DNA of 64,000 nt, taken from assembly GCF_963668385.1 (NCBI RefSeq), contig NZ_OY764327.1, positions 1,984,001-2,048,000 of the forward strand, in the 5' to 3' direction. Shown one piece after another: positions 9,899-32,077 of the stretch. Numbering within the stretch: position 1 is the stretch's first letter; each line of letters starts with the position of its first letter. The translations under genes were made by a program, and so were the position numbers. This DNA comes from an uncultured Carboxylicivirga sp. (GTDB lineage: Bacteria > Bacteroidota > Bacteroidia > Bacteroidales > Marinilabiliaceae). The notes beneath the pieces were generated by a model. That model saw only the letters and a program-made list of their open reading frames with translations, was not told the origin of the DNA and did no database searches.

Positions 9899-9945
9899 AA
9901 ATTTCTGCCTTCTGCCTGTTTAACTAACTATCTAATTTTTTACAA
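9899..9945 (+). repeat. Dispersed TTCTGCCTTCTGCCT repeat, copy A
   Basis: The stretch with TTCTGCCTTCTGCCT followed by AACTAAC and ATCTAATT recurs at 37588-37632 with only a few differences. A shortened form lies at 44395-44412 and a minus-strand form near 5195-5220. All copies are intergenic. It has no open frame and no known function. Confidence 0.5.
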
Positions 9946-9955
9946 AATACTTCAT

Positions 9956-9996
9956 TATTGTTGGAATTACATACATAGCTGTTGGAAAATCCAACA
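9956..9996 (+). promoter_or_regulatory. Two-site upstream activator element 1 (TGTTGGA-N3-TCCAACA)
   Basis: A perfect 7-bp inverted repeat TGTTGGA-AAA-TCCAACA occupies 9980-9996. A half-site TGTTGGA starts at 9959, 21 bp upstream and thus on the same face of the helix. The full 41 bp matches 31966-32006 closely. Palindromes of this size about 70-100 bp upstream of a -24/-12 box are typical of NtrC-family enhancer sites. The neighbouring activator gene makes it the obvious ligand (inference). Confidence 0.7.
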
Positions 9997-10050
9997 CATG
10001 ATAAAAGGTGATTGGTGTTAGGTGGCAGTATATCAATAAAATAAGATAAA

Positions 10051-10067
10051 GGCACGGGGTTTGGCAT
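10051..10067 (+). promoter_or_regulatory. Sigma-54-like promoter box 1
   Basis: GGCACGGGGTTTGGCAT matches GGYAYGRGRTTTGGCAT, shared with 32061-32077. GGCACG fits the -24 element exactly. The -12 element reads TTTGGC, leaving 11 bp between GG and GC instead of the usual 10. The GC lies 76 bp from the palindrome centre and about 27 nt before the adaptor ATG. This gives a leader of roughly 15 nt. Confidence 0.55.
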
Positions 10068-10091
10068 GGTATTACCAAATACGAATAAATA

Positions 10092-11342
10092 ATGGACAGA
10101 CAACTCGAACAAAAGCCTTGGTGGAAGAAGAACTTAAAATGGATTACCGGTGTAATCATTTTCTTAATGTGTTGTATCTATTTTATTGCTTTTGCCGATC
10201 ACCGAAGTAGTGTAAAAATGGATAGTGATCGTATTACTATTTCATCAGTTGAACAAGGCGATTTTCAGGATTATATAAGTGTGACAGCTACTGTTGAACC
10301 CATCAAAACCATTTATCTGGATGCCATTGAAGGTGGGCGAGTTGAGTCGATTTTGCTCGAAGAAGGCAAAATGGTTGAAAAGGGTGATCCTATTGCCCGA
10401 TTAAGCAATACCAACCTGATACTTGAAATTTCGAATAATGAAGCCAATGTGGCTCGTGCCATCAACGAGTTGCGTACTGCCCGTTTGCAAATGGAAATGA
10501 ATGCCATGGAATTGCAAAACCAGATTGTTAAGCTGGGTGGCGACTTATTTCTTCAGAAACGTAAGTATACCAATTCAAAAAACTTCTTTGCCGAAGGATT
10601 AATATCAGAAGATGAATATTTAAAAGATAAGACTGATTTTGAAGCTTCGGAACGTCAGATGACTTTATTGAAAGAAAGTTTTAAACGCGATTCGATCTAT
10701 CGAAAAATACAAATTGAAACATTGGAGAGTTCTGCAGAGCGTATGGAAGAAAATCAAGACATTATTCGTCAGCGATTGGATAACTTAACCATTAAAGCTC
10801 CGGTAACGGGGCAATTGGCAGCATTAAATCTGGAAGAAGGTCAGGTGATAAGTTATGGAACGCGCGTTGGTAAAGTTAATGTGCTGGACGATTTTAAGCT
10901 AAAAGCCAAAGTAGATGAACACTATATTTCGCGCATTCATAAAGGATTGAAAGGAAGTTGTCAGTTCCCTTCGGGTGATATCGAAGCCGAATTAACCAAA
11001 GTATATGCCGAGGTGGTTGAAGGTAAGTTTGAAGTGGATCTGACCTTTGACGAAACGATGCAAAAAGCCTTACGCATTGGGCAAACCAGTTACGTTAAAT
11101 TGCAATTGGGCGATCCTGTTCAGTCCATTTTACTTCCACGTGGTAGTTTCTTCCAAAGTACAGGTGGCCAGTGGGTATTTGTGTTGAATAAAGATCGTAC
11201 GGCAGCTTATAAACGAGCCATTACCATTGGGCGTCAGAATCCAAAATACTTCGAAGTATTGGATGGATTGCAACCCGGCGAGGAAGTGATTACCTCGGGA
11301 TACGAAGTTTTTGGCGATAATGAAGTGGTAATTTTAAACTAA
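10092..11342 (+). CDS. HlyD/MacA-type periplasmic adaptor (membrane fusion protein) of the permease array
   Basis: 416 aa. A short cytoplasmic N-terminus is followed by one membrane anchor (~17-35), then a barrel-sandwich/lipoyl half-motif (V-T-A-T-V-E-P, G-G-R-V-E-S-I-L-L-E-E-G). Next comes a long coiled-coil hairpin (~125-235), the second lipoyl half (I-K-A-P-V-T-G-Q-L-A) and a beta-barrel/MP domain. It should bridge the inner-membrane ABC permeases to an outer-membrane channel. No TolC-like gene lies in this locus, so that partner must be shared. It is the first gene of the array, 28 nt before the first permease, and the only adaptor for ten permeases. Confidence 0.9.
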   Translation: MDRQLEQKPWWKKNLKWITGVIIFLMCCIYFIAFADHRSSVKMDSDRITISSVEQGDFQDYISVTATVEPIKTIYLDAIEGGRVESILLEEGKMVEKGDPIARLSNTNLILEISNNEANVARAINELRTARLQMEMNAMELQNQIVKLGGDLFLQKRKYTNSKNFFAEGLISEDEYLKDKTDFEASERQMTLLKESFKRDSIYRKIQIETLESSAERMEENQDIIRQRLDNLTIKAPVTGQLAALNLEEGQVISYGTRVGKVNVLDDFKLKAKVDEHYISRIHKGLKGSCQFPSGDIEAELTKVYAEVVEGKFEVDLTFDETMQKALRIGQTSYVKLQLGDPVQSILLPRGSFFQSTGGQWVFVLNKDRTAAYKRAITIGRQNPKYFEVLDGLQPGEEVITSGYEVFGDNEVVILN

Positions 11343-11370
11343 ACTCGAACAACGAACTCACAACTATAAT

Positions 11371-13773
11371 ATGTATCTATTAAAAATAGCCTTCCGAAAT
11401 CTGTTTCAAAAACAGCAACACTCTATTACTCGCATTATCTCATTAGCTGCCGGTTTAGCTTTTGGGATATTAATGCTCTCTGAGGTTTTTTATTATTATA
11501 GTTTCGATAGTTTTTATCCCGAAGCTGGTAGAGTTTATGTTGTTCAATCCAATGCCAGACTGTCGGATGATAATGCTGAAATGGATGTATGGGATCGTAC
11601 CAGTGGAGCAATTGCCCCGGGAATGAAGGATGAAGTGCCAGGAGTGGAAGTGGCAACACGATTAAATTCGATTGGCAACCTGATTTTTTATACTGCCGAT
11701 CAGAAAAGTTACAAAGGGCGGTGTGTGCTGGCCGACGAATATGTGTACGATGTTATTCCCCGCAATATGTTGGTAGGTAATGCTAAGGAAGCGATGCTAA
11801 AGCCTTCGAACTGTATTATCTCAAGTAAAATTGCGGCTTCGATGGGGGATGATGCGGTTGGTAAAGTAATTGAGTTTAGAAAATATCCGGGAGTTCAACT
11901 AACAGTTGCCGGCGTGTTTGAAGCTCTTCCTGAAAACAGTAATTACAAGTACGATGTGTTAATATCAATGTCGTCGATTGCTCAGTTTTTTGATTGGGAT
12001 GGATCAACCAATTGGTTGGGTAACGACCGGTATTACAGTTGTGTAAAACTAGATGCTGGCGTTAATCCAAAAGACCTGGCACCAGCTATTCGAAAAATGC
12101 AGGAAAAACATCAGGATATCATAAAACTGGAGCAAGATCATGGTGGTGAACTGCTGAAATATACATTAATGCCTATTCAAAAAGTTTATGTGAGTAGGAT
12201 ACAGGGAATGGTAATCATTTTAAGTACCATCGCACTAGCAGTGTTGTTTGTTTCGTTGATGAATTATGTATTGCTAACTTTTAGTAGCTTGATTAATCGG
12301 GCTAAAAGTTCGGCTGTTTATAAAACTTGCGGAGCCACATCCAACGACCTAAAAAAAATTATATTTACCGAATCGTTTGTGTTTTTTGTATTAGCCCTTT
12401 CTGCAGCTCTGGTAATTTTAATGGCTGTAAAACCCCTTGTCGAAAATTTAGTGGCTCATAGTTTAGAGGCAACGTTAAACAAGTATGTATTGTGGCCAAT
12501 AGTAGGAGTTTTAATCATCTTTGTTCTTTTATCAAGTTACTTTCCCGGGCGATTTTTTGCGAATATTCCGGTGTCTGCCGCATTTCGCAATTACAAGCAA
12601 AAGAAGAATAAATGGAAGTTAGGATTGCTTTCGTTCCAATTTATTGGAGCTTCTTTTATCCTGACTCTTCTGGTTGTGGTAACTCTTCAGTATCATAAAA
12701 TGATCAATGCCGATCATGGTTATCGTTCCCAAGGTGTTTATTACTGTTCCACAAATGGAATTGACGGAAGTAAACTGAATATGATAATGAATGAACTTCG
12801 GAAATTACCCGAAGTTGAAAAGGTGGGTATGGGCGAAGAAGTGCCGGTTTATCAGCAATCAGGAAATAATATTTACTCGCAAGACGGCCAGAAAGATCTG
12901 TTTAATATAGCCGACTTTTATAGTGCTGATGAAAACTACTTATCCATTCTTGATATAGATGTCACCAATGGCCGTGATTTTTCTACAAGCGGTATCAACA
13001 ATAACGACGTTTTTATTAGTAAGAAGTGTGCTGAGTTATTAAAAATTCACAATCATTGGGAAGATGGTGTAATTGGGAAAGAAATTAAGGTTTCGGAACA
13101 CCAAAGATCTACTATTAAAGGTGTATTCGACGATTTTATTATAGGTTCTATTGTAGAGCCGGATAAGCGACCATCCGTATTTTTTTATCAGTCGGAAGAA
13201 GGATTCATCAGACAAAAAGAGAAATATTCTTCGATGGAGTTTAAGCTTTTGGTTCAGGCAAAAACAGGTATGGAAGCTAATATCAGAAATAAAATAAAGC
13301 AAGTGGTTGATATGGCTTTACCTAATAAAGATGCCGTTGTAAGAAGTCTGGAAGATGAGCAGTTTAATGGTTATCAGGCTCAATTAAGTTTCCGAAATGG
13401 TATGTTGGCAGGTAATGTGGTGGTATTTCTCATCACTATTATTGGTTTGATAGGTTATACTTCAACAGAAACAACCCGACGTAGTAAAGAGCTGGCCATT
13501 CGACGAATCAGTGGAGCTTCAATATCAGATTTAATAATCAACTTTATTTTAGAGCTACAGTATTTGGTTTTGCCATCGTTGCTGATAGGCTTGGGACTGG
13601 CATGGTTTATACTTACCAAATGGATGGAATCGTTTGCTCAAAAAATGCCTTTGCAGTGGTGGATCTTCTTGCTGTGCAGTATAGGTATTTTATTAATGGT
13701 GGCCATTATTGCAATGATTAAGTATTCGCGCATTGCCTCGCGTAATCCGGTTGAATCCCTGAGATATGAATAA
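11371..13773 (+). CDS. Two-module FtsX/MacB-type ABC permease 1
   Basis: 800 aa, no ATPase domain. The architecture, shared by the other nine permeases, is TM1 near residues 20-42, a large MacB-like periplasmic domain, three TMs (~275-395), a linker, TM5 (~425), a second periplasmic domain, and three C-terminal TMs ending in a short tail. It is the most divergent member of the first block: the conserved K-E-I-G-I-R-K-V-N-G-A-K stretch reads K-E-L-A-I-R-R-I-S-G-A-S, and the tail is N-P-V-E-S-L-R-Y-E. Relatives work as mechanotransmitters in MacB-like export or in lipoprotein handling. The substrate is unknown. Confidence 0.9.
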   Translation: MYLLKIAFRNLFQKQQHSITRIISLAAGLAFGILMLSEVFYYYSFDSFYPEAGRVYVVQSNARLSDDNAEMDVWDRTSGAIAPGMKDEVPGVEVATRLNSIGNLIFYTADQKSYKGRCVLADEYVYDVIPRNMLVGNAKEAMLKPSNCIISSKIAASMGDDAVGKVIEFRKYPGVQLTVAGVFEALPENSNYKYDVLISMSSIAQFFDWDGSTNWLGNDRYYSCVKLDAGVNPKDLAPAIRKMQEKHQDIIKLEQDHGGELLKYTLMPIQKVYVSRIQGMVIILSTIALAVLFVSLMNYVLLTFSSLINRAKSSAVYKTCGATSNDLKKIIFTESFVFFVLALSAALVILMAVKPLVENLVAHSLEATLNKYVLWPIVGVLIIFVLLSSYFPGRFFANIPVSAAFRNYKQKKNKWKLGLLSFQFIGASFILTLLVVVTLQYHKMINADHGYRSQGVYYCSTNGIDGSKLNMIMNELRKLPEVEKVGMGEEVPVYQQSGNNIYSQDGQKDLFNIADFYSADENYLSILDIDVTNGRDFSTSGINNNDVFISKKCAELLKIHNHWEDGVIGKEIKVSEHQRSTIKGVFDDFIIGSIVEPDKRPSVFFYQSEEGFIRQKEKYSSMEFKLLVQAKTGMEANIRNKIKQVVDMALPNKDAVVRSLEDEQFNGYQAQLSFRNGMLAGNVVVFLITIIGLIGYTSTETTRRSKELAIRRISGASISDLIINFILELQYLVLPSLLIGLGLAWFILTKWMESFAQKMPLQWWIFLLCSIGILLMVAIIAMIKYSRIASRNPVESLRYE

Positions 13774-13820
13774 AGATTCAAAGTTGTTGGCTTTAGCATA
13801 TAAAAGATAAAAAGATACCT

Positions 13821-16181
13821 ATGATAGGTTTTAAATTACTCATACGATCAATAAAGAAAAATAAACTGCACTCCTTCATAAGTATTGTAGGATTAGGTAT
13901 TGGATTAGGTTGTGTTCTATTACTATCGTTATTGTGGCTACATAATAAGACATTCAACCAGTCTGTGCCCGATTATCAGAATGTGTACAGGATAGTACGC
14001 GGTAATCGATCCATGACTTCTTATCCGCTGGGACAAAGTGTGAATGAAGTGAGTCCATTTGTTGATAACTATTTTCGCTTTTATCAGAAAGCTAAAGTCG
14101 AGATAAAGCTTTCGGATAATCAATTGGTTAATTGTGAACGCATGGGATTTTCAGATGCTTCCATATTTAACATGTGGGGTGTGAAACTTAGTTCAGGTAG
14201 AGCTGCCGAAACCAAGACTGAAATTGCGATTTCGGAAAATATGGCCAAAAAATTATTTCCGAAAACTTTAGCTGTTGGTCAACAATTGAATGTGCAGGTA
14301 AATGAAACCTTCATACCACTATCTGTTTGTGGTGTATATGCTGATTTTCCCAATAACTCAACACTTGATCCTGAATTTATCGCTCATATTGATCTTTCAG
14401 AAGAAGCAATGGGGTTTGATCAAAAGAAGTACGGTGTTTATAATAATTCAAATGGAAATTTTGATGGTTGGAATTACTCTCGTTTTCAAACCTATATTCA
14501 TGTTGCAGAAGGTTGCAATGTTAAGGCTGTACAAAAATCATTAGAACAATTTAAGGCTTTAACCAATAGTGAAAAACTTAAGTCGATAGATTATTCTTTA
14601 CAACCACTAAATGATGTTTATTTGTTTTCAAGTAATCTAACTGATGACTTATACTCACGTACCGGAGATGCTCAGGATCTCGTTTATAACATTGCAATTT
14701 CTTTGTTGATTTTACTTATTGCGATCATTAATTATGTATTTCTAACCAAATCAAAATTTGATTCGCGTTTAAAAGAAATTGGTGTTCAACGGGCCATGGG
14801 AGCATCTCGTTTTTTGCAAAGCAAACAAATCATTTTCGAATCGGTAATGATGGTTTTGTTTAGTCTTATTCCGGCAGGAGTAGTGTTGTTTATTGGAATA
14901 CCGTTTGTCAATTCAGCATTAAATCAATCATTAGGATTTGAAATATTCAATAATGTTCAAAGTTGGATTGTGCTTCTTTTATTAGTTCTATTTACGGGCG
15001 TAATAACAGGATTGATCATTGCTTATGATACACTAAAGATTCCATCTTTTTTATTGTTAAAAGGGGAAAAAAGAAAGGTTACCAATTCTAATATTTGGAG
15101 CAATTCAGTAATAAGTATTCACTTTATCATCTTCATTGTTTTAATATCGGGTTTATTAAGCCTCAATAAGCAACTTAGCTATGTTTTAAACGATTTTGAG
15201 GGAATTAATCCCAACAACGTTTTAGTGTTTGAACTAAATTCGGATAAGCTAAGTGAGCGGTATACTTATATAAAAAACGAAGTTGATAAAATCCCAGGGG
15301 TTCTTGCTTCTGCCGGGTCATCATTTATTCCTCCGTTTAATGATTTTCTGCCATTAACATTAAAAGATAAAGAAGGTAATGGTATTCCTTTTGATGGTTT
15401 GATAATGGGAAAAGGGATGATTGATTTGCTGGGTATTAAGGTGGTTGATGGCGAAAGCTTTGGTGATTTTTCCACAACCGAAACCAACATTATTTATAAC
15501 GAGTCAGCAGCTCGAAAATATAATTTAAAGGCAGGTGAATTATTTAGTGGATGTATGGTTAAAGGCATCGTTAAAGATTTTAATGCACATTCGATGCATA
15601 ATCTTATTCAACCAATGGCCATTGTTCAACAACAGCCTGATCAATTACGATTATTGGTTGTAAAGACTGATGGAACCAATAATGCATTGATATCAAATAA
15701 TATTAATAAGATTCTAAAGAGTGCTGAGCCAGATCAACTTGTTAACAGTTATTTGCTAACAGATCAGATTAATCAATTTTATTCATCCGAAAAGAGTCAG
15801 GCTAAATTGTTAAACGCATTTTCATTACTGGCCATTATCTTATCTGTGATGGGATTGTTTGGCATGTCGTTAAATCTAGTGTTACGCAAAACAAAAGAAA
15901 TTGGTATCCGCAAAGTTAACGGTGCCAAAGTGTCCGAAATCTTAGTCTTGCTAAATAAAGACTTTATAAAATGGGTATTCATCGCCTTTGTAGTTGCTAC
16001 TCCCATTGCTTACTATGCCATTGATTTATGGCTTCAGAACTTTGCTTATAAAACAGAACTTAGTTGGTGGATATTTGTCCTTGCAGGAATACTGGCTTTA
16101 GGCATAGCATTGTTAACAACAAGCTGGAAAAGTTGGAAAGCTGCAATAGGTAATCCTATAGAGGCATTGCGATATGAATAG
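13821..16181 (+). CDS. Two-module FtsX/MacB-type ABC permease 2
   Basis: 786 aa, 47 nt after permease 1 and built the same way. Its C-terminal cassette has the common form (K-E-I-G-I-R-K-V-N-G-A-K-V-S-E-I-L), but its codons differ from those of permeases 3-6, so it is outside the recently homogenised group. The tail is N-P-I-E-A-L-R-Y-E. It is followed by a 165-bp gap holding a large hairpin, before the first ATPase. Confidence 0.9.
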   Translation: MIGFKLLIRSIKKNKLHSFISIVGLGIGLGCVLLLSLLWLHNKTFNQSVPDYQNVYRIVRGNRSMTSYPLGQSVNEVSPFVDNYFRFYQKAKVEIKLSDNQLVNCERMGFSDASIFNMWGVKLSSGRAAETKTEIAISENMAKKLFPKTLAVGQQLNVQVNETFIPLSVCGVYADFPNNSTLDPEFIAHIDLSEEAMGFDQKKYGVYNNSNGNFDGWNYSRFQTYIHVAEGCNVKAVQKSLEQFKALTNSEKLKSIDYSLQPLNDVYLFSSNLTDDLYSRTGDAQDLVYNIAISLLILLIAIINYVFLTKSKFDSRLKEIGVQRAMGASRFLQSKQIIFESVMMVLFSLIPAGVVLFIGIPFVNSALNQSLGFEIFNNVQSWIVLLLLVLFTGVITGLIIAYDTLKIPSFLLLKGEKRKVTNSNIWSNSVISIHFIIFIVLISGLLSLNKQLSYVLNDFEGINPNNVLVFELNSDKLSERYTYIKNEVDKIPGVLASAGSSFIPPFNDFLPLTLKDKEGNGIPFDGLIMGKGMIDLLGIKVVDGESFGDFSTTETNIIYNESAARKYNLKAGELFSGCMVKGIVKDFNAHSMHNLIQPMAIVQQQPDQLRLLVVKTDGTNNALISNNINKILKSAEPDQLVNSYLLTDQINQFYSSEKSQAKLLNAFSLLAIILSVMGLFGMSLNLVLRKTKEIGIRKVNGAKVSEILVLLNKDFIKWVFIAFVVATPIAYYAIDLWLQNFAYKTELSWWIFVLAGILALGIALLTTSWKSWKAAIGNPIEALRYE

Positions 16182-16299
16182 TCTTTTTTGTCACCCCTCT
16201 GACTCCCTCAACGGGGAAGAACCAGACAAAAACTATATGCACCGTATTGATAGTCCCCCTTGGAGGATTTAGGGGTAAATGGAAGTTAAGAAAAGACTA
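16179..16299. repeat. Large intergenic hairpin inside the array operon
   Basis: The outer arms TAGTCTTTT (16179-16187) and AAAAGACTA (16291-16299) are perfect inverted repeats. Within them ACCCCTCTGACTCCC through CAACGGGGA (16193-16217) pairs imperfectly with 16254-16276 (TCCCCCTTGG through TTTAGGGGT). The left arm overlaps the stop codon of permease 2. It may be a mobile-element remnant, or an mRNA hairpin that lowers expression of downstream genes relative to the adaptor. It lacks a terminator T-run. Confidence 0.5.
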
Positions 16300-16346
16300 T
16301 GTGAAATCCATCGAAATAAAAATATAATACAATTAAAACCAAAACC

Positions 16347-17045
16347 ATGATACAACTGAACGACATTTTCAAGTACTACGATAACAAGTTTCAACGCAGT
16401 TATGTGTTAAAAGATTTTTGCCTGAACATCAACGAAGGCGAATTTGTATCCATTATGGGCCCCAGTGGAGCTGGTAAATCAACCTTGTTAAATATTATTG
16501 GTATGCTGGACGTGGCTGACGACGGCGAATATTTCTTTATGGATCAGCCGGCACATAAGTTGAGCGATAAAAAGAAAGTGGAATTTCATCGAAATTATGT
16601 AGGGTTTATTTTTCAGGCCTTTCATTTAATTGATGAAATGACAGTTGCTGAAAATATTGAAACTCCATTGATTTATAAAGGTGTTAAATCGAAAGAACGC
16701 AAAGCTATGGTGGCTGATTTACTCGATCGTTTTAATATGGTTGCCAAAAAGGATTTATTCCCAGCTCAACTATCCGGAGGTCAGCAGCAGTTAGTAGGAA
16801 TTGCAAGGGCTATTATCAGCAAACCTAAATTACTCTTAGCTGATGAGCCAACGGGAAATCTTCATTCCGACCAAGGAAAAGAAATTATGAAGCTGTTGAA
16901 AAAACTGAATGAAGAGGAAGGAATAACCATTATTCAGGTTACGCACAACGAGGAATTTGCTCAATACGGAAAACGTATTATTCGCATCGAAGATGGAATG
17001 AAGAAGAGTGACTTACCTGTGGCTACTTTGCAAGAGCAAGTGTAA
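16347..17045 (+). CDS. ABC transporter ATP-binding protein 1 (LolD/MacB type, non-canonical signature)
   Basis: 232 aa single nucleotide-binding domain. Walker A is G-P-S-G-A-G-K-S-T (38-46), with a Q-loop around I-F-Q-A-F, Walker B L-L-L-A-D-E-P, and the switch His in V-T-H-N-E-E. The signature reads L-S-G-G-Q-Q-Q-L-V-G-I-A-R, with Leu where the family has Arg. The D-loop region reads G-N-L-H-S-D-Q-G, with His where most relatives have Asp. The catalytic residues are present, so it is probably active with altered dimer contacts. It should energise the surrounding permeases and is followed 29 nt later by permease 3. Confidence 0.93.
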   Translation: MIQLNDIFKYYDNKFQRSYVLKDFCLNINEGEFVSIMGPSGAGKSTLLNIIGMLDVADDGEYFFMDQPAHKLSDKKKVEFHRNYVGFIFQAFHLIDEMTVAENIETPLIYKGVKSKERKAMVADLLDRFNMVAKKDLFPAQLSGGQQQLVGIARAIISKPKLLLADEPTGNLHSDQGKEIMKLLKKLNEEEGITIIQVTHNEEFAQYGKRIIRIEDGMKKSDLPVATLQEQV

Positions 17046-17074
17046 TACATTACCAAACCTATAAACCTATACCA

Positions 17075-19405
17075 ATGTTACGTTTCCGACTTTTAATGGC
17101 TATCCGAAATCTATTAAACGATAAGTTAAATGGATCACTTATAATAGGCGGTTTCGCCATAGGGTTTACAGCCTGTATTCTGATTGGGCTATTTCTCTTA
17201 TCGGAGCATAGGGTAAATAAAGTGTTCAGTAATTCAGAGAATATATATCGTGTTTATGATGCTAAAAATAAAACCGAAATGCTGGATTACAGTTTGTATC
17301 CGAAACTTTGGAAGGAATACCCTGAAATTGAAGATGCTTGTCCTATGGAATATAGTAGTGGATTTCCAATTGTGGTAAAAGATGCTAAGTTGGATGTCAG
17401 TGCCAGGTTAGACCAGATTATCGGAACAACAGATAACTTTTTCGATATCTTTTCTGTTAAAGTGATTTCTTGTCTTTCCGATAAACCTTTTGCTTTCGAT
17501 AAATCAATAGTGATTACCGAATCGGTTGCCAAACAAATGTATGGTTCGATAAATCCGTTAGGGCGAACGCTAAAAACTGACTTTTTTGAAGGTACAATTA
17601 CGGCAGTAATAGAAGACTTACCTCGAATGGCTAGTTTTCAAGCTCAACTTATTATCAATACTGACTTCGAAGAATTCCGTTTATCTCAGTCATGTAACGA
17701 TGGTAAATGTTGGTATGTGACACCCCATTTTGTAGCATTAAATAAATCTGTTGTTCCCGAGCAACTTGCTAATAAAATCAATTCATCGATTAAAGATATT
17801 AGTGTTCATGTTGATAGTCTGGCTTTTCAAAATATAGAAGATATTTACCTTTCAAAACTTCAAATGAAGGACGCACATGCCAAAGGAAACTCTAATGTAT
17901 TGTCTGTTTTTCTTGCTATTGGCATCTTGATTTTGCTTCTGTCAAGCATTAACTATATCAATTTTACAATTTCAAGGCAATTCAGTAAACTTAAGGAATT
18001 TGGTATAAAAAAGATTAATGGAGCCAATGCTACAAACCTGTTTTTAGGGGCCCTCATTGAAGTATCGTTGGGAATTATTATTTCTGCCTGCATTGCCATA
18101 TTGCTTACTGCACTTATTTTGCCGCATTCAGCCAGTTTGTTTGGCAAGGAGATTCATTTTGCTGATGTGAATGCGGGAGTGGCTGTTGCTTTAATGCTTA
18201 GTGTAATTGTACTTGTAGTTTTAATGAATTGTATGGCTCCTGTTTATATGTTTACACGTTTTAAAATAATCGATTTCCTTGCAGGGAGCAGTAAGCATAA
18301 CAGAAAACAAATTGGAAGACAAGTCATGCTTACTTTTCAGATGGTCGCATCAATCATACTTATTGCAAGTGTGTTAACCATTTTTAAACAACTTGAATAT
18401 GTAAAACATTTCAATCTTGGTTTTAATGAAGAGCAGCTTGTACGTTTTGATTTACCTTATACCTACGAGTCTCCATCAACCATAAAAGAGGAGATTGGGA
18501 AATTACCATTTGTGGTAAGTAGCACATTAAGTGACGGATATCCCGGACACGTGAAACTTCGGATGGGAAGTGGTGAAGGTGAAAATAATTTTAAGATGCA
18601 CTGTATTACAATCTCAGACGATTATCTGGAAACGATGGGAATTAAACTGAAAGATGGTCGTAAATTTCATAGAGGAGATCAAAACAGGGCATGTTTAATT
18701 AACGAGGAAGCTTATAAGCGTTTTGGATGGAATAGCACAGAAAATAAAATATATCAACAAGGTAGGAATGGAGGTTATCAGGTTCTGGGTGTTGTTGAGA
18801 ATTTTAATACTCAATCGTTGCATGCAGGCATTGAACCTGTCGCCTTATTGTATCGTGCTGACGTTCCTTTTGGAACCCTTTCGGTAAGGTTGGCTCCCGG
18901 TAATGTATCACTTCAGCTTAAAGGCATTGAGCAGGCATGGAAAAGAATTCTGCCACACGAACCTATGTATTTTACATTTTACGATGATCAGTTTCAGGCT
19001 ATGTACCAAAAGGAAGAGCTGTTGGCGCGATCTGTTTCTTTCTTTTCGATTATTGCCATTGTGTTAACATGTATGGGGATTTTGGGACAGATTCTGTTAG
19101 TCAGTTTTGCTCGCACCAAAGAAATCGGCATCCGCAAAGTAAACGGTGCTAAAATATCAGAGATTCTTACCCTGCTCAACAAAGACTTTATCAAATGGGT
19201 TGCCATTGCTTTTGTAATTGCTACACCCATCGCCTGGTTTGCCATGAATAAATGGCTCGAGAATTTTGCCTATAAAACCAATCTTAGCTGGTGGATATTT
19301 GCCTTAGCAGGATTATTTGCCTTAGCAATTGCCTTACTAACTGTTTCCTATCAATCGTGGAAAGCAGCTGTGAAAAATCCGGTGGAGGCGTTGAGGTATG
19401 AATAG
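17075..19405 (+). CDS. Two-module FtsX/MacB-type ABC permease 3
   Basis: 776 aa, same layout as permease 1. Its last ~95 codons contain two tracts identical at nucleotide level to permease 4 (19148-19281 = 21528-21661, 134 bp; 19343-19401 = 21723-21781, 59 bp), although the N-terminal parts of the two proteins are only weakly similar. This points to recent gene conversion. The periplasmic domain contains C-N-D-G-K-C, a possible disulphide not seen in its neighbours. Confidence 0.9.
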   Translation: MLRFRLLMAIRNLLNDKLNGSLIIGGFAIGFTACILIGLFLLSEHRVNKVFSNSENIYRVYDAKNKTEMLDYSLYPKLWKEYPEIEDACPMEYSSGFPIVVKDAKLDVSARLDQIIGTTDNFFDIFSVKVISCLSDKPFAFDKSIVITESVAKQMYGSINPLGRTLKTDFFEGTITAVIEDLPRMASFQAQLIINTDFEEFRLSQSCNDGKCWYVTPHFVALNKSVVPEQLANKINSSIKDISVHVDSLAFQNIEDIYLSKLQMKDAHAKGNSNVLSVFLAIGILILLLSSINYINFTISRQFSKLKEFGIKKINGANATNLFLGALIEVSLGIIISACIAILLTALILPHSASLFGKEIHFADVNAGVAVALMLSVIVLVVLMNCMAPVYMFTRFKIIDFLAGSSKHNRKQIGRQVMLTFQMVASIILIASVLTIFKQLEYVKHFNLGFNEEQLVRFDLPYTYESPSTIKEEIGKLPFVVSSTLSDGYPGHVKLRMGSGEGENNFKMHCITISDDYLETMGIKLKDGRKFHRGDQNRACLINEEAYKRFGWNSTENKIYQQGRNGGYQVLGVVENFNTQSLHAGIEPVALLYRADVPFGTLSVRLAPGNVSLQLKGIEQAWKRILPHEPMYFTFYDDQFQAMYQKEELLARSVSFFSIIAIVLTCMGILGQILLVSFARTKEIGIRKVNGAKISEILTLLNKDFIKWVAIAFVIATPIAWFAMNKWLENFAYKTNLSWWIFALAGLFALAIALLTVSYQSWKAAVKNPVEALRYE

Positions 19406-19445
19406 GGTTTTGATAGTAACATGTGCATAGACTTAGTAGTTTAGG

Positions 19446-21785: not shown

Positions 21786-21879
21786 AAAGCATAATGTGAA
21801 GAAATCAAAGTCTTTAGTGTATCAATAGAACAATTGTTTCAGCCATTTTATAAATGATATTAATCGAAAACCTAACCAT

Positions 21880-24252: not shown

Positions 24253-24298
24253 CCGAATTTAGTAACATCCATTTATTCTTACCTTAAATATTACCAAA

Positions 24299-26674
24299 AT
24301 GAGAAATCTTAGAATTAGCTTAAGACATTTAAAAACTGATAAAACCAATACTTTAATTAGTATAGCAGGTTTAATTATTGGTTTGGGAATTGTGGCTTCA
24401 GTTATTACTTATGTTATTAATGAGTTGAACTACAATCAATCCATAGCTAATAAAAACCGTATTTATAGGGTTCTTCACTTTGATTCTAATGATCATCATT
24501 ATTGGGCAACGACTCCATTTGCAGTAGGAGAACAAGCTAAGATTCAGCTTGCAGAAGTTGAGAGTGTTGTTCATCAATATAATATGGATAATATTGAGGT
24601 TCAGAAAGGGAATGAGTTTATTCCTGAACCTGATATGATGAGTTGTGAGAGTAGTTTTTTCAGCGCTTTTGGAGTGAAAATATTGCAAGGAAGCCTAATT
24701 GATTTTGATGAAACCTCGAAGAGCATTGCGCTTAGTCGTCAGTTGGCAGAGAAATATTTTGCCAATCAAAATCCTTTGGGACAAGAATTAACCCTGCGGT
24801 ATGGTGGACAAAAATATGTAATGGAAGTTACAGCGGTATTTAATGATATTTCGCAAAACTCAACAGTAAAACCAAAGCTGTTAACAAATATCGATTTTGG
24901 TTTACAACACTTGGCTTCTAATCTTATTTCGAGCGGTGAAATGCCAACAGCAGATCAACTTAAGCAAGATTGGGGTATGTCGTTAATGACTACTTATCTG
25001 ATGCTAAAAAAAGATGTTGATCAGAAAGCATTTGAAGCAAAACTGAAAAAGATTGGAGAAGAAAATGCCACTATAAACATGCCAATGGATTTAGCTCTTC
25101 AGTCATTGTCGGATATCTATTTTTCATCAATAGAAATTAGAAATAGTGGTAACGAAAAAGGAAATAAGTCAATGCTGATACTAATGCTTGTAATGGGCCT
25201 CTTAATCTTATTGGTAGCCATCATTAATTATCTGAATTTAGCATCAGCCAGGTTAATGGCTCAAACAAAAAATTACGCTGTCAGAAGAGTTTGCGGAGCT
25301 GGCAATAAAAGCATTGTAAACCAAATTATTACTGAATCTACTATTATCACTTTGGTTGCATTACCATTTGCATTACTTTTTGCCTGGTATGCAATGCCCG
25401 TGGTTAGTCAAATGTTAGGAAAAACGTATACCATTGAGTTTTCAGAACAAATAGTATTAACTCTCATTCTTTTATTTGGTCTAACGCTGGTTTCGGGTAT
25501 CGTAGCTGGTTTATTGGTTTCGTATAAAGTGTCGAGAGTGAGTATGGCCATTATTCTTAAAGGAAATAAACACTTTATTGGTAGTAAGCACTATGCAAGA
25601 AAGGCAATGGTTGTTTTTCAGTTTGTTGTTTTTATTGTTTTAATTTCGGTTACTTTCTTAGTTCAGAAACAGGTTAAATATACCTTTAATAAAGATTTGG
25701 GTTTTAATAAGGAAGGTTTAGTAACCATACCTTTGGGCGATCATAATTTAGACTTGTTCAAGGAGGAGATACTTAAAAATCCATCTGTACTTAGCGCCTC
25801 AGGAACATTGTGGATGCCTCCTAGTGATAACAATATTTTCATGACCTTACCTAAAGTGAGTCACCCTGATGAAAAAGTTAATGTGAATGCTCTTTTTGTA
25901 GATTATGATTTTGTGAAAACAATGGGATTAGAGCTGATAACAGGTTCTGATTTTGAAAAATCAAAAGGCAATGGAGGTGTTATTGTTAATCAGTTAGCCG
26001 CAAAAGAATTGGGACTTACCACTGTGGTTGGAGAAGAAATAGCCTGGGGTAAAGTGGTGGGTTTGGTTAATGATTTTAATATGTCATCGCTTCATCAGAA
26101 AATATCGCCCATGTTGATTGTTTTAAAGCGCGATATGTGTAAAAATATAGCTGTGAGGTTACGAAGCGAAAACTTAGCTCAGAGCATTGACTTTTTAGAA
26201 AAAACATGGAACAAAACTGGAGGCACAACATCTTTTAGTTACGAGTTTCCAAATGATATTATTCGAGAAATGTATCAAGCCGAGATACGGTTTTCACAAA
26301 CAATTGGATTGTTGGCCGTCATAGCCATTTCCATTGCTAGTCTTGGATTACTAGGTTTATCGCTTCTAATTGGTAAGCAACGCACCAAAGAAGTAGGTAT
26401 TCGCAAAGTAAACGGAGCCAAAATATCAGAAATACTTACACTGCTTAACAAAGACTTTATCAAATGGGTAGCTATTGCTTTTGTTATTGCAACACCTATA
26501 GCCTGGTTTGCTATGAATAAATGGCTCGAAAATTTTGCTTATAAAACCAGTCTGAGTTGGTGGATATTTGCTTTAGCAGGTTTGCTGGCATTAGCAATTG
26601 CCTTACTTACTGTTTCATATCAATCGTGGAAAGCAGCCACACGAAATCCGGTGGAGGCTTTGAGATATGAGTAA
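24299..26674 (+). CDS. Two-module FtsX/MacB-type ABC permease 6
   Basis: 791 aa, 46 nt after permease 5. The body is closest to permease 10 in the second block (both have V-D-Y-D-F followed by M-G-L in the second periplasmic domain and N-P-L-G-Q-E or D-P-L-G-Q-E in the first). The C-terminal cassette is nearly identical in DNA to permease 5. The motif reads K-E-V-G-I-R-K-V-N-G-A-K. Confidence 0.9.
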   Translation: MRNLRISLRHLKTDKTNTLISIAGLIIGLGIVASVITYVINELNYNQSIANKNRIYRVLHFDSNDHHYWATTPFAVGEQAKIQLAEVESVVHQYNMDNIEVQKGNEFIPEPDMMSCESSFFSAFGVKILQGSLIDFDETSKSIALSRQLAEKYFANQNPLGQELTLRYGGQKYVMEVTAVFNDISQNSTVKPKLLTNIDFGLQHLASNLISSGEMPTADQLKQDWGMSLMTTYLMLKKDVDQKAFEAKLKKIGEENATINMPMDLALQSLSDIYFSSIEIRNSGNEKGNKSMLILMLVMGLLILLVAIINYLNLASARLMAQTKNYAVRRVCGAGNKSIVNQIITESTIITLVALPFALLFAWYAMPVVSQMLGKTYTIEFSEQIVLTLILLFGLTLVSGIVAGLLVSYKVSRVSMAIILKGNKHFIGSKHYARKAMVVFQFVVFIVLISVTFLVQKQVKYTFNKDLGFNKEGLVTIPLGDHNLDLFKEEILKNPSVLSASGTLWMPPSDNNIFMTLPKVSHPDEKVNVNALFVDYDFVKTMGLELITGSDFEKSKGNGGVIVNQLAAKELGLTTVVGEEIAWGKVVGLVNDFNMSSLHQKISPMLIVLKRDMCKNIAVRLRSENLAQSIDFLEKTWNKTGGTTSFSYEFPNDIIREMYQAEIRFSQTIGLLAVIAISIASLGLLGLSLLIGKQRTKEVGIRKVNGAKISEILTLLNKDFIKWVAIAFVIATPIAWFAMNKWLENFAYKTSLSWWIFALAGLLALAIALLTVSYQSWKAATRNPVEALRYE

Positions 26675-26732
26675 AAAATGAACTGCTGCTATTAGGTGCA
26701 TCAACCAATGAAACAAACTTAAACTAAAGAAT

Positions 26733-29087
26733 ATGTTCTGGACTCAATTTAAACTCATGTTTCGTAATTTATTTCGAAACAAGCTATACTCAGCCATAAA
26801 TATTTTAGGCTTAGCTATTGCAATTACTCTTGTGTTATTATTGTCATCTTATGTATCAAACGAACGAACTATTGATTCGTTTCATGCCAATAAAGACCAA
26901 ATTTATCGTGTTTATGGCGATAATATTAACACTTTCGCGCCTCCCTTTGGCCAGTTTATTCTTGATAATATAACAGGAGCTGAGTGTTATACCCGAACAT
27001 TTGTTCAGGAAGGGACTATCAATTACAAGAACATTAAATATAAGTCGGGAAAATATTTATTGGTCGATTCTGTTTTCTTTAAGATGTTTTCATTTCCATT
27101 GGAGAGAGGAAATCCGGATGAAGTATTGGTATCATACCAAAATGCAGTGTTGTCAGCCAGTTTCGCCCATAAACTATTTGGAACAAGCAATCCCCTTGGT
27201 GAGAGTTTCGAATTAGACGGACACCAGTTTACTGTCACTGGTATTTTTCAGGATTTTAAGGACAATACTCATTTTATTAAACCTAATATAATACTCAATT
27301 TTAGGGCACTTCCTCGTCTTTGGGGTAATGGGGATGAAGGAACTAAGTATTTTATGAACGACTATAGCAACAGTTCGTTTGGTCTGTATGTAATGGCTAA
27401 TAAGAAATCCAATATAATGAAACGTGGGCCTGAATTACTTGAAAAAGCAAAAGAGATTTATTGGATTTTTCAGAATGGTAGAAATACCGAACTCTCATTT
27501 ATGCCACTCGAAGATGTATACTTCAAACAGGGAGCACTTGATTATATTGGAACCCGACAAGGAAATGAAAAATTTCTGACTATCCTTATGTTTATAGCAG
27601 TGATTATTGTAGTAGTAGCTGCCATCAATTACATCAATTTAAATATTACTCAATCGGTGCGGCGAGCTAAAGAAGTTGGAATTAAAAAGATTATTGGTTC
27701 ATTGCGCTTGAGTATTATTCAACAGTTTTTGTTGGAGTCTACATTTATTTCTTTGCTATCTACAATCATAGCAGTATTCCTAACCATTGTTGCTCTACCT
27801 GAGTTTAATAAATTAACCGATAATAGTTTTAGTATAGCAGATATTTTCAATGGTGGCTTTTTGCTTCGAAGTATTATCGTTGTTTTTATAATTGGCATTG
27901 TAGCTGGTATTTTTCCCTCGCTTATTCTTTCACGCTTTAAGGCTATCGACATAGTAAAAGGAACTCCATCGCGGTTAAAAAATAATTTTGGTCAACGGGT
28001 TATGGTTGTTTTTCAGTACACCGTTTCAATTGTATTGATAGCTGTGGTAGGTTTCATTCTAAAGCAAAATGACTTTATGCGAAACTACGATTTAGGCTTT
28101 GATAAAGACAATACCTTTTACATTAGGATGACTAAAGAAACCAATGATCAAAGGGATGCTTTTGAAAACGAATTGATGAAAATACCAGGTGTAAAAGCCG
28201 TTTCGTTTTGCCAGGATTTTCCGGGAGGGCCCATTAACAACAGTTCTTTTGTGAGTAATGGTAAAAATCAAAGTTTTGATGAATTTAGAGTTGATACTGC
28301 TTTTTTCTCTGCTCTTGGAATCTCTTTAGAGCATAATATATCCACATCAGATAATGTTTTTGGCGACAATAAATATGCTTGTATTTTAAATCAAACAGCC
28401 GTAAACGAACTTGAGTTAGAGCCCCCCTATGATGAATTCAAACGATACGATGCAGTTGAGAAAATTAGTCAGGTGATCCCAGATATTAATTTCAGATCGT
28501 TGTATAAAAAAACGCGTCCAACAGTATTTCATATAACCGATAGAAGTGCAGCACCCTTTGTTTTGATAAGAGGAACCGGAGGTAGTTTACCAACCATTGT
28601 GAAAAAAGCTAAAGCTATATTTAAAGAGATGTCGCCATCTGAACCCATTGAATTTAACTTTTTAGATGATGCTCTTAATACGGCTTATAACAAAGAAGAA
28701 CGTTCGGCAAAGATAGTTGGCTACTTTGCCATTTTTGCCATACTAATTTCGTCGTTGGGCATATTTGCATTAGCAAGTTATACAGCTCAAAACCGTAAAA
28801 AAGAAATTGGAGTCAGAAAAGTAAACGGTGCCAAAATTTCGCAAGTAATGCTTATGCTTAACCGAGGCTTTGTTAAATGGGTTGCCATAGCTTTTTTAAT
28901 TGCGATCCCCATCGTTTGGTTTGCCATGAATAAGTGGTTGGAGAATTTCGCCTATAAAACCAGTCTTAGTTGGTGGGTTTTTGCCTTAGCCGGTTTGTTG
29001 GCTTTAGTAATTGCCTTAGTAACCGTAAGCTGGCAAAGCTGGCGTGCCGCCAATAAAAATCCGGTGGAAGCACTGAGGTATGAGTAA
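26733..29087 (+). CDS. Two-module FtsX/MacB-type ABC permease 7
   Basis: 784 aa, 58 nt after permease 6. The C-terminal cassette keeps the protein sequence pattern (K-E-I-G-V-R-K-V-N-G-A-K-I-S-Q-V-M) and the N-K-W-L-E-N-F-A-Y-K-T block but has its own codons, so it is less recently homogenised than permeases 3-6. TMs and the two periplasmic domains are as in permease 1. Confidence 0.9.
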   Translation: MFWTQFKLMFRNLFRNKLYSAINILGLAIAITLVLLLSSYVSNERTIDSFHANKDQIYRVYGDNINTFAPPFGQFILDNITGAECYTRTFVQEGTINYKNIKYKSGKYLLVDSVFFKMFSFPLERGNPDEVLVSYQNAVLSASFAHKLFGTSNPLGESFELDGHQFTVTGIFQDFKDNTHFIKPNIILNFRALPRLWGNGDEGTKYFMNDYSNSSFGLYVMANKKSNIMKRGPELLEKAKEIYWIFQNGRNTELSFMPLEDVYFKQGALDYIGTRQGNEKFLTILMFIAVIIVVVAAINYINLNITQSVRRAKEVGIKKIIGSLRLSIIQQFLLESTFISLLSTIIAVFLTIVALPEFNKLTDNSFSIADIFNGGFLLRSIIVVFIIGIVAGIFPSLILSRFKAIDIVKGTPSRLKNNFGQRVMVVFQYTVSIVLIAVVGFILKQNDFMRNYDLGFDKDNTFYIRMTKETNDQRDAFENELMKIPGVKAVSFCQDFPGGPINNSSFVSNGKNQSFDEFRVDTAFFSALGISLEHNISTSDNVFGDNKYACILNQTAVNELELEPPYDEFKRYDAVEKISQVIPDINFRSLYKKTRPTVFHITDRSAAPFVLIRGTGGSLPTIVKKAKAIFKEMSPSEPIEFNFLDDALNTAYNKEERSAKIVGYFAIFAILISSLGIFALASYTAQNRKKEIGVRKVNGAKISQVMLMLNRGFVKWVAIAFLIAIPIVWFAMNKWLENFAYKTSLSWWVFALAGLLALVIALVTVSWQSWRAANKNPVEALRYE

Positions 29088-29114
29088 ATCCGTTTTGGAG
29101 AAAAAAACAACATT

Positions 29115-31490
29115 ATGAATAGCAATATTAAACTTGCCATCCGAAATCTATTAAAAAATAAAGGCACAACCTTTATTAATATTGCAGGGTTGTCTGTAGC
29201 ACTTGTGGTAAGTATTTTACTTTTTTCAATAGCATTTAACGAGCGTTCGATGGATAGCTCCCAAAAAGCTGTTAACGACATCTATGTAATATCAGAGTCG
29301 AATGAACCTGGTGTGTCAAAGCCTATTGCCGATTGGTTGACACAACAAGTTCCTGAATTAGGAATAGTAACCATCTGTAATTACGAGTGGTCGCCACAGG
29401 TATTTCTGAAAAAAGAATCGAATAATTACAAGGTTGAACAGTTACTTGTGGCCGACTCAAACTATTTCAAAGTTTTTGAGTTTCCGCTTCTTTATGGAGA
29501 TGCCAATGATGCTATGCTTCATCCTGATAAAATTGTTTTAACCGAGCAGTTATCCCGTAAAATATTTGGAGACCAGAATCCGGTGGGGAAATCACTGGAA
29601 TATAATTCAACCTACTTAAATGTAAAATCAGTTCAAGTTGGAGCAGTCATAAAAAGCTTACCCAATAATTCATCCTGGAGTTTTGATGCTGTTTTGCCCA
29701 TTACAGCAAATTTAAACCTTTCGTGGTACAACGATCTATACCAATCGTGGGGAGCTTGGAACTATTGTGGTTTTGCAAGGCTAAGAACGAGTACCGATTC
29801 CGAACTTGTTAGCAAACATTTATCTGATATCGATCATTCATTGTTACCTAAAAACATTCGAAATGATAAGATGAACTTTTCTATCACTCCATTTCGAGAT
29901 TCCTATTTTAAATTGCCCGCAATCGAAGAGTTAAAACACGGAAATAGTTACATAAACCTAATTCTTCATATTATTGCTGTGATGATTTTATTATTGGCTT
30001 GTGTCAATTATATCTCAATGGTAACTGCTCAACGCGAAAAATGGATTAAAACCATAGGCATAGCCAAAAGTTTAGGAAGTAGCAAAAGTGAGATTATCCG
30101 TATGGTAATGGCTGAATCGTCCATTATTCTTATTATTGTTTTGCTGATCACCATTTCTATCACTCCAATTTTACTTTCTTCAATACAAAACTCTTTTTTC
30201 GACAGTATTAACAAGTTGTCGTTATTTACCCCACAAAACATATCGATTCTTGCCTGTACCACCTTTTGCGTATGGATGTTTACCGGGTTTATTCCTGGAT
30301 ACTTGTTGAGTAAATATGATACCTCCTTGTTGTTAAGGAAATTACCTATAGGATCAATAAATAGGGAATTGATGAAAAACGGGATGTTGGTTTTTCAATT
30401 TATTGTCACCATAATACTAATTTCAGGTATGCTGATTATTCAACGTCAAAATAAAATGATTAGCAATAATACTCCCGGTTTTGTAAAAGGTCAAATTATT
30501 GTGGCTAGTACCAACAAAGACATTCAAACCAAGATTCAAGCTTTTAAGAACGATGTTAGAATGATGCCGCGAATAACCGCTTTTACTTTTTGTTCAGAAC
30601 CTATTGGAAATGTATCCAACAATACCGCTACTACAATGGAATATCAAGGAGATCAGAAAGAAATTGGTTTTACTTCTTTTTGGGTTAGTCCTAATTTTTT
30701 CGATTTTTTTGGAATACAGTTTAACGAAGGCTCCACATTTAACAAGAACTCATTTAGTAATAAGGATTTCATCTTAAACCAGAAAGCTCTTGATGACTTT
30801 GGTATCGAAAAGCTTCAGGACGCTCGGATAAATATTGATACTAACAAAAATCATGGTCAGTTAATAGGTGGAGTTGAGAATTTTAATTTCCAATCGTTGC
30901 ATGTGCCCATTAAGGCTGCCGGTTTTATGTGTGCAGGTGAGGCTGAAGACATTGGTTATTTTAAAATTAATGCTCAAAGTAGCAACCAGTTTAAAAGAAC
31001 AATTGCTCAACTTGATAATGCCTGGAACAAACTGTCTCCCGATTATCCTTTTGAGTATACATTTCTCGATCAATCCTGGGCTAATCTTTACCAGAGAGAC
31101 AAGGATTTTCAGCAACTTATTAATTATGCAACCCTACTTTCGATATTACTTTCCTGTATGGGATTGATAGGTTTAAGTTACTTTATCCTTGAACGGAAAA
31201 CCAAAGAAATAGGCATCCGAAAAGTTAATGGAGCCAAGATATTGCAAGTTATAGTAATGCTCAACAAAGACTTTTTAAAGTGGATTGTTATTGCTTTTGT
31301 CATAGCCGCACCCATTGCTTCTTATTCTATGAATCATTGGCTTCAGAATTTCGCTTATAAAACTGAACTAAGTTGGTGGATCTTTGCTCTGGCAGGTATT
31401 CTAGCCCTCGGAATTGCTCTGTTAACAGTGAGTTGGCAGAGTTGGCGTGCCTCCAATAAAAATCCGGTGGAAGCTTTACGATATGAATAA
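29115..31490 (+). CDS. Two-module FtsX/MacB-type ABC permease 8
   Basis: 791 aa, 27 nt after permease 7 and the last permease of the first block. It is a paralogue of permease 5 over most of its length (W-S-P-Q-V-F-L-K; S-W-S-F-D-A-V-L; S-C-M-G-L-I-G-L). Its C-terminal cassette differs (K-I-L-Q-V-I-V-M-L-N-K-D-F-L-K-W-I) and is closer to permease 2 in the N-F-A-Y-K-T-E-L-S-W-W block. Confidence 0.9.
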   Translation: MNSNIKLAIRNLLKNKGTTFINIAGLSVALVVSILLFSIAFNERSMDSSQKAVNDIYVISESNEPGVSKPIADWLTQQVPELGIVTICNYEWSPQVFLKKESNNYKVEQLLVADSNYFKVFEFPLLYGDANDAMLHPDKIVLTEQLSRKIFGDQNPVGKSLEYNSTYLNVKSVQVGAVIKSLPNNSSWSFDAVLPITANLNLSWYNDLYQSWGAWNYCGFARLRTSTDSELVSKHLSDIDHSLLPKNIRNDKMNFSITPFRDSYFKLPAIEELKHGNSYINLILHIIAVMILLLACVNYISMVTAQREKWIKTIGIAKSLGSSKSEIIRMVMAESSIILIIVLLITISITPILLSSIQNSFFDSINKLSLFTPQNISILACTTFCVWMFTGFIPGYLLSKYDTSLLLRKLPIGSINRELMKNGMLVFQFIVTIILISGMLIIQRQNKMISNNTPGFVKGQIIVASTNKDIQTKIQAFKNDVRMMPRITAFTFCSEPIGNVSNNTATTMEYQGDQKEIGFTSFWVSPNFFDFFGIQFNEGSTFNKNSFSNKDFILNQKALDDFGIEKLQDARINIDTNKNHGQLIGGVENFNFQSLHVPIKAAGFMCAGEAEDIGYFKINAQSSNQFKRTIAQLDNAWNKLSPDYPFEYTFLDQSWANLYQRDKDFQQLINYATLLSILLSCMGLIGLSYFILERKTKEIGIRKVNGAKILQVIVMLNKDFLKWIVIAFVIAAPIASYSMNHWLQNFAYKTELSWWIFALAGILALGIALLTVSWQSWRASNKNPVEALRYE

Positions 31491-31545
31491 AAAATGTCAG
31501 AATCAGGATTGATAAGATGAAAGGATCTACAAGATTATAAGGAAT

Positions 31546-31923
31546 ATGGAAAATAATATTAACGATGAATTGACATACAAGATTATCGGATGTGCCATGA
31601 ATATTCATAATACTTTGGGTAATGGTTTTCAGGAAGTAATATACCAGCGTTGCTTGGCTATAGAATTAGACAAAGAACAGATAGAGTACAAGAGAGAGCA
31701 GGAAATGCCCATCTATTACGAGAATATTCATGTAGGAACACGAAGAGCTGATTTTATAATAGCTGGCGAAGTTATGGTTGAATTAAAAGCTATTGTAATA
31801 CTAGAAGATGTTCATCTTGCTCAAGCTTTGAATTATCTAACAGCTTATCAAATCGATAGAGGTTTATTGATCAACTTTGGATCAACCAGTTTGGAAGTTA
31901 AAAGATTATATAGAAAACACTAA
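31546..31923 (+). CDS. GxxExxY family protein (PD-(D/E)XK-like fold)
   Basis: 125 aa, the usual length for the family. It shows the defining G-N-G-F-Q-E-V-I-Y (GxxExxY) near residue 30 and the nuclease-fold pattern A-D-F-I-I followed by E-L-K-A (~residues 68-80), equivalent to D-x(n)-E-x-K. The family belongs to the PDDEXK superfamily, but its function is not established. It sits 55 nt after permease 8, just before the second enhancer-promoter, so it may be co-transcribed with the first block. A membrane-export role is not evident; it may be a passenger gene. Confidence 0.85.
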   Translation: MENNINDELTYKIIGCAMNIHNTLGNGFQEVIYQRCLAIELDKEQIEYKREQEMPIYYENIHVGTRRADFIIAGEVMVELKAIVILEDVHLAQALNYLTAYQIDRGLLINFGSTSLEVKRLYRKH

Positions 31924-31965
31924 TCCCGATAATCTATAAATCCTGTTTATCCTGATAGCAGACAA

Positions 31966-32006
31966 TATTGTAGGAAATAAATACACTGGTGTTGGATATT
32001 CCAACA
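31966..32006 (+). promoter_or_regulatory. Two-site upstream activator element 2 (TGTTGGA-N3-TCCAACA)
   Basis: The palindrome TGTTGGA-TAT-TCCAACA occupies 31990-32006 and a degenerate half-site TGTAGGA starts at 31969, again 21 bp upstream. It corresponds base for base in layout to 9956-9996. It marks a second transcription unit under the same activator. Confidence 0.7.
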
Positions 32007-32060
32007 GTTTTAAAAATGATTGTAATGTTAATATGTACATATTCAGTGTAATATGATTAG

Positions 32061-32077
32061 GGTATGAGATTTGGCAT
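32061..32077 (+). promoter_or_regulatory. Sigma-54-like promoter box 2
   Basis: GGTATGAGATTTGGCAT fits GGYAYGRGRTTTGGCAT, as at 10051. The GC of the -12-like element lies 76 bp from the palindrome centre, the same distance as in copy 1. The predicted start would be near 32087, giving a leader of about 23 nt before permease 9. Confidence 0.55.

Follow-up and report, generated by a model that had tools for sequence, protein, structure and literature searches.

Two promoters of this marine Carboxylicivirga genome, p1 and p2, are very probably enhancer-dependent sigma-54 promoters that would be activated through a short, helically phased DNA loop by the divergently encoded NtrC-type regulator. 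Both lie in the window, the 64-kb stretch that we analysed out of a genome of 6.27 Mb assembled as a single contig. The preliminary description had noted a shared layout at these two sites; that observation is confirmed, and is more general than first claimed. The sites, their geometry, the conservation of that geometry and a match between operator letters and recognition helix were observed directly, and from these we infer binding, looping, signal and cargo. The features are as follows:

7062..8387, minus strand: sensor histidine kinase with HATPase_c (Pfam; hydropathy of the N-terminus)
8377..9747, minus strand: NtrC-type response regulator, REC-AAA+-HTH_8, with GAFTDA and helix INRSTLY; proposed activator of p1 and p2 (Pfam, family comparison)
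9959..9975, plus strand: p1 distal operator TGTTGGAATTACATACA, a degenerate palindrome
9980..9996, plus strand: p1 proximal operator TGTTGGAAAATCCAACA, a perfect palindrome
9997..10050, plus strand: p1 spacer of exactly 54 bp; its length is the same in 13/13 genomes, its sequence weakly conserved
10051..10067, plus strand: putative p1 sigma-54 box GGCACGGGGTTTGGCAT, with the -24 GG at 10051-10052 and the -12 TTTGG(C); predicted start near 10076
10092..11342, plus strand: HlyD/periplasmic adaptor, first gene of operon 1 (Pfam)
11371..31490, plus strand: operon 1 array, eight MacB/FtsX-type permeases and an ABC ATPase (ORFs, Pfam, mutual similarity)
16347-17045, plus strand: the operon 1 ABC ATPase (Pfam)
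31546..31923, plus strand: PDDEXK_3 (GxxExxY-like) gene, which separates the two blocks and does not clearly belong to the system (Pfam)
31969..31985, plus strand: p2 distal operator TGTAGGAAATAAATACA
31990..32006, plus strand: p2 proximal operator TGTTGGATATTCCAACA, a perfect palindrome
32007..32060, plus strand: p2 spacer of exactly 54 bp
32061..32077, plus strand: putative p2 sigma-54 box GGTATGAGATTTGGCAT, with the -24 GG at 32061-32062; predicted start near 32086
32110-34428 and 34409-36802, plus strand: operon 2, two MacB/FtsX-type permeases (Pfam for the gene at 32110, similarity for that at 34409)
36838..37551, plus strand: operon 2 ABC ATPase (Pfam)

The exact palindrome TGTTGGA-N3-TCCAACA occurs at 9980-9996 and 31990-32006, 22 kb apart, and the palindromes, upstream elements and boxes of the preliminary description were all found in place. 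A half-site had also been reported 21 bp upstream of each palindrome. This is exact at p1 (TGTTGGA at 9959), while the p2 copy carries one mismatch (TGTAGGA at 31969), and both upstream arms form the left half of a degenerate 17-bp palindrome, TGT-N11-ACA. Each promoter has the tandem palindromes of a NifA/NtrC-like UAS, with two 17-bp TGT-N11-ACA sites 21 bp apart and the distal one degenerate. The fixed distance is that from the palindrome to the -24 GG, with a gap of 54 bp (63 bp from palindrome centre to first G). From the palindrome centre to the GC there are 76 bp at both p1 and p2, and the two operators are placed about 88 and 109 bp ahead of the predicted starts.

At p1 and p2 the GC is one base off the canonical GG-N10-GC, and a GG-N10-G reading fits with the G at -12. 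Our box score was built by hand after the Carboxylicivirga promoters had been seen; by this score, reading TTTGGCAT as the -24 element at gap 66 does nearly or equally as well as the gap-54 reading (10.0 versus 10.3 at p1, 9.6 versus 9.6 at p2). We rejected the gap-66 reading because it leaves no G at -12. The string TTTGGCATG itself is found at gap 54-55 at three further sites in two relatives. The genome holds one copy of rpoN (one Sigma54_DBD match).

We compared up to 320 bp ahead of the HlyD gene in 30 genomes. Wherever HlyD is at least 68% identical (13/13 genomes, own included), the operator pair is present with offset 21 and gap 54. All 13 promoters also keep the box: eight read GG-N10-GC (GGCAYGNCTTTGGCA or near it), one reads GA, and four have a box one base longer (GG-N10-GG, with the GC at the next base). 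The longer form comes from the own genome, its sister and two other genera, and is also that of p2 in the own and sister genomes. The -12 register shifts by 1 bp between lineages. The 76 bp to the GC, which the preliminary description had singled out, are true of p1 and p2 and are the form of this lineage, with 75 bp in most relatives (those with N10); the invariant is the -24 GG. Five further sites have gaps of 54, 54, 54, 54 and 55. G000 and G001 contribute one each and G003 two, all inside the array downstream of HlyD, while the one in G013 follows a permease fragment on a short contig of its own. Counting the 13 HlyD promoters and these five sites together, the gap is 54 in 17/18 and 55 in one. 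The comparison supports p1 and p2 as putative sigma-54 promoters.

The same type of UAS, with gap 54, was also found in another family of the same order, beside a regulator that is 61% identical and divergent from an FtsX permease. The close HlyD is absent from three of the 13 same-genus genomes (G005, G006 and G008). In G003 one locus (L083/L084) carries three promoters of the p1/p2 type, so regulators differ in how many operons go with them. By eye, an IHF-like string of the type GCA..ATATCA appears in several HlyD-promoter spacers; in the other-family match it is placed elsewhere.

The exact palindrome has only two copies in the whole genome, those of p1 and p2. Its sole one-mismatch copy, at 62426, was considered as a third target and rejected, as it lies inside an ORF (61558-63333) recognised by eye from its sequence as a V-ATPase gene, and comes without a matching box. 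Allowing up to two mismatches gives 39 sites in the genome versus 28 for the reversed pattern as control; the 36 sites with two mismatches therefore resemble background, and we rejected a large diffuse regulon made of them. The pattern TGGCAYNNNNNTTGCW gave 12 matches genome-wide versus 8 in the control, too few for a local consensus. That the arrangement was unlikely to arise by chance, as had been argued, is borne out: a search for the palindrome plus box (gap of 40-70 bp) matched two of 100 genomes, the own and its sister, at two sites each, far above chance, with 0 matches for the reversed control. That no other genome matched reflects the search pattern, which required a box spacing of 11 bp. 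With a looser one, 13 of 60 genomes had sites (the own is among the 13, and so is G053 of another family), again with 0 for the reversed control. The proposed two-operon regulon is thus supported by comparison as a putative local regulon of the own genome, for strong sites.

Homologues of the regulator (E 1e-100 or better) are present in 200 of 393 genomes of the order. We used 90 regulator loci, own included, each oriented outward, and scored the boxes blind to the palindromes. Over the 47 regions with a box score of at least 9.8, mean palindromicity peaks at gaps 54 and 77 (4.0 and 3.96 in a three-base window, versus a maximum of 3.93 in 2000 rotations). We then called pair and box jointly, leaving gaps free at 20-120 and offsets at 18-26 and taking a score of at least 13 as a confident pair. 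This gave 29 pairs with a box in 89 upstream regions, versus 0 of 267 dinucleotide shuffles; the remaining 60 of the 89 regions in this first set lacked a confident pair. Nineteen of the 29 gaps are at 52-56, six at 63-67 (one helical turn beyond the main cluster), two at 75 and two elsewhere (41 and 48). Both gap-75 cases have one good palindrome each, not two, and in the gap-41 and gap-48 cases the TGT site itself is at 64 and 67. A second, class-level draw of 28 further loci (including two same-order loci, one the own-genome paralogue) yielded pairs at five, with gaps 54, 54, 56, 64 and 66, and no confident pair at 23. Four of these five pairs are from outside the order; the gap-56 one is from the same order.

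None of the 34 pooled gaps falls at 57-62 or 68-74, though one separate distant HlyD promoter scored 13 at 57. Their periodic component has a broad peak at 10.5-11.5 bp (Rayleigh p ~1e-8); the tight main cluster accounts for most of this signal, so what really speaks for phasing is the second cluster, one turn off. A TGTYGG-type palindrome was found in none of the 17 genomes with a distant HlyD (40-52%). Pairs in other letters score at least 13 in two of these 17 promoters, at gaps 66 and 57 (the latter with offset 18), and two lower scores are a 12 at gap 78 and an 11 at gap 67. In the ten regions around the own genome's other eleven activators, no palindrome pair reached a score of 13, and canonical boxes gave two intergenic matches. 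The recurrence of the layout, in other operator letters, beside many related regulators suggests a short-loop activation rule in the phylum.

An ordinary NtrC/sigma-54 module could show the same exact spacing by common descent, its orthologous promoters having had no time for indels and its homologues having inherited the layout. All compared regulators do come from one family, and a weak resemblance of the spacers persists across the HlyD promoters (majority 0.56 versus 0.455 shuffled). Neighbouring lengths, however, vary freely: the leader from GC to ATG runs from 28 to 151 bp across sites (row L033 left out) while the gap stays fixed. Nor would descent account readily for family gaps that cluster at 52-56 and one turn off and leave 57-62 and 68-74 empty in the 34 pairs, the separate promoter at gap 57 being the one exception. 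We regard this explanation as unlikely.

Under the preferred reading, a short phased loop, two regulator dimers would sit on the two TGT-N11-ACA palindromes, with centres 21 bp (two helical turns) apart. The membrane kinase would relay a signal upon which the dimers assemble into an AAA+ ring, and the ring would touch the sigma-54 polymerase via a very short DNA loop. Such a loop, near the shortest workable length, would be stiff, so that the proximal site would be confined to one helix face; the allowed positions would be 54 bp before the -24 GG or, in some homologues, one turn more. The persistence length of DNA is about 150 bp. As the loop would be shorter than one persistence length, its torsional stiffness would account for a gap exact to the base as well as for the alternatives at whole turns. 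The switch is read here as a short-loop, helically phased variant of an ordinary NtrC/sigma-54 system.

In textbook sigma-54 systems the distances of enhancers vary widely. Enteric NtrC at glnAp2 resembles the present system: the activator is a response regulator, its tandem sites stand about 90 and 140 bp upstream there, and a sigma-54 promoter and an activation loop take part (PMC7408454). That review puts the minimum distance of the NtrC site at glnA at 70 bp, gives it as movable to 1000 bp, and describes one two-site NtrC system as dependent on the face of the helix. The difference is that the glnAp2 distance can reach 1000 bp or more, whereas here it is near the minimum and kept to the base or to whole turns. 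The outer TGT...ACA frame is the same as in the NifA/FhlA-class UAS (TGT-N10-12-ACA), a class that includes fifteen Clostridiales activator groups and in which motif similarity tracks the DNA-binding domain (PMC6615313). As described there, the Clostridiales UAS are mostly 100-250 bp from the promoter, whereas here two sites stand 21-23 bp apart at a fixed gap. In Desulfovibrio the largest promoter class is reported within 100 nt of the nearest site (PMC4641369), so a short UAS distance is not unique to the present family. Our search of the open-access literature found no description of this operator-box geometry, nothing on Carboxylicivirga two-component or ABC systems, and nothing joining Bacteroidales, FtsX-like permease and sigma-54.

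To compare operators with recognition helices we used 49 loci with a regulator sequence, of which 23 (own included) have a pair scoring at least 13; twenty of the C-termini were added after the sites had been seen. GG arms (TGTTGGA, TGTCGGA and the like) occur beside 7/7 NRS regulators and 0/15 others with a readable helix (Fisher 4e-6, a value that counts L192, whose C-terminus is unreadable, as 'other'). Beside SRQ or TRQ regulators the arms are mostly rich in A+T, e.g. TGTAAAA or TGTCAAA. Four NRS loci have no confident pair. The NRS rows form one clade on the tree (support 96/94), so the match amounts to one well-marked clade contrast, which should not be counted as seven separate events. 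Through it, each palindrome is tied to the regulator beside it. The proposal that p1 and p2 are targets of the regulator at 8377-9747 gains support from these family sequences, with both promoters as its predicted targets.

The palindromes might alternatively be repressor operators, or sites of another factor, with transcription driven by sigma-A. A candidate for such a promoter is ACAAAATACTTC at 9942-9953, between the regulator gene and the operators, which could be the regulator's own promoter; counted by eye, it is exact in 6/13 HlyD promoters and within two mismatches in 10/13. But the -24/-12 box is kept at a fixed distance from the operators, and operator letters track the neighbouring NtrC-type recognition helix, so that we give this possibility hardly any weight.

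For the Bacteroidota GAFTDA family at large, we lean modestly towards a near-minimal, quantised loop, with operators 21-23 bp apart and a gap near 54, 65 or 75, in which the letters diverge with the helix, the geometry is kept, and insulated copies of the switch stand before fast-changing permease arrays. Distances held to the base or to whole turns are a natural comparative data set for the limits of loop stiffness. The joint change of operator letters and helix informs how paralogous two-component switches stay insulated, and the geometry gives a simple rule to predict target promoters in Bacteroidota. Several genomes show at least four regulators of this family; in one of them (G353, contig C99, L146) four lie within about 47 kb as a cluster of parallel switches. 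The regions upstream of four other regulators (L207, L219, L232 and L233) have GGCAY...TTAGTT boxes and no confident TGT-ACA pair.

The regulator joins REC, sigma-54 interaction AAA+ and Fis-type HTH domains in one protein, all above the Pfam cut-off. An exact GAFTGA loop is absent from the 8377-9747 regulator, which reads GAFTDA. GAFTDA or GSFTDA is found in 27/30 family members (one GSFTGA, two unread) and in 27/28 of a second set (one GSFTDS), a total of 54/58. For Desulfovibrio, GAFTDA, the form in DVU2106, is named among variants expected to remain active (PMC4641369), and NorR G266D is described as still active and escaping its inhibitory domain (PMC2941729). A family with GAFTDA would be missed by any survey filtering on GAFTGA. 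FtsX-like permeases (COG0577) of Bacteroidia were predicted in a 2025 survey to be under sigma-54 control; that survey took GAFTGA activators only and would drop the GAFTDA family, and its available text does not give operators for COG0577 (PMC12316311). The present family reveals a group of sigma-54 activators left out by such filters. Regulator identity is 75-79% in the genus outside the sister genome and 72-75% in two other genera. The kinase has diverged further than the regulator, to 54-59% in relatives outside the sister genome. Its N-terminus is hydrophobic over about 50 residues and would form two membrane segments joined by a very short loop. With this hydrophobic N-terminus and seemingly very short loop it resembles intramembrane-sensing kinases.

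The preliminary description had further held that the promoter was duplicated together with permease genes, which is not supported: p1 leads into the HlyD adaptor and p2 into a permease, and that permease is at most 26% identical to the others. A recent segmental duplication inside the own genome would fit the operators, spacing and box common to p1 and p2, the fact that the permeases are paralogues, and a spacer identity of 26/54 (shuffle mean 17.2, p 0.007). Against it, p2 is also found in the sister genome and further sites in two more genomes. Flank identity between p1 and p2 is 25/60 upstream and 11/40 downstream (raw counts, without a shuffle baseline), and the permeases of the window are 22-34% identical to each other, with one pair at 45%. 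Given the different downstream genes and the low permease and flank identity, we rejected a recent duplication of promoter and permease and consider it very improbable. An old duplication of the promoter alone would be compatible with the spacer identity.

Of the parts of a MacB-type tripartite exporter, the adaptor, the MacB/FtsX permease and the ATPase are present. Of the eight operon 1 permeases, that at 11371 was assigned by Pfam and the other seven by similarity to each other. The permeases and ATPases here are separate proteins, unlike in E. coli MacB. BceRS-BceAB of Firmicutes, associated with antimicrobial peptides, likewise has a short-loop kinase, a response regulator and an FtsX/MacB-type permease in one locus, with an OmpR-type regulator and sigma-A promoters. 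The likeness is one of locus content, and differs by the NtrC-type regulator and sigma-54 here; we do not claim membership. The output is probably export of, or protection from, membrane-active compounds, the protection reading resting on the MacB/FtsX class and the short-loop kinase.

Adaptor identity in relatives is 68-80%. Best matches of the second ATPase are 81-92% identical, and two genomes have matches to the first ATPase at 75%. In the sister genome (G001) HlyD is 99% and the ATPases are 97-100% identical to those of the own genome; the PDDEXK_3 gene had no match in the searched stretch. Ten permeases in the own genome compare with five in the sister, three of which match the own at 91-99%. 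The permease array turns over very fast relative to HlyD and the ATPases.
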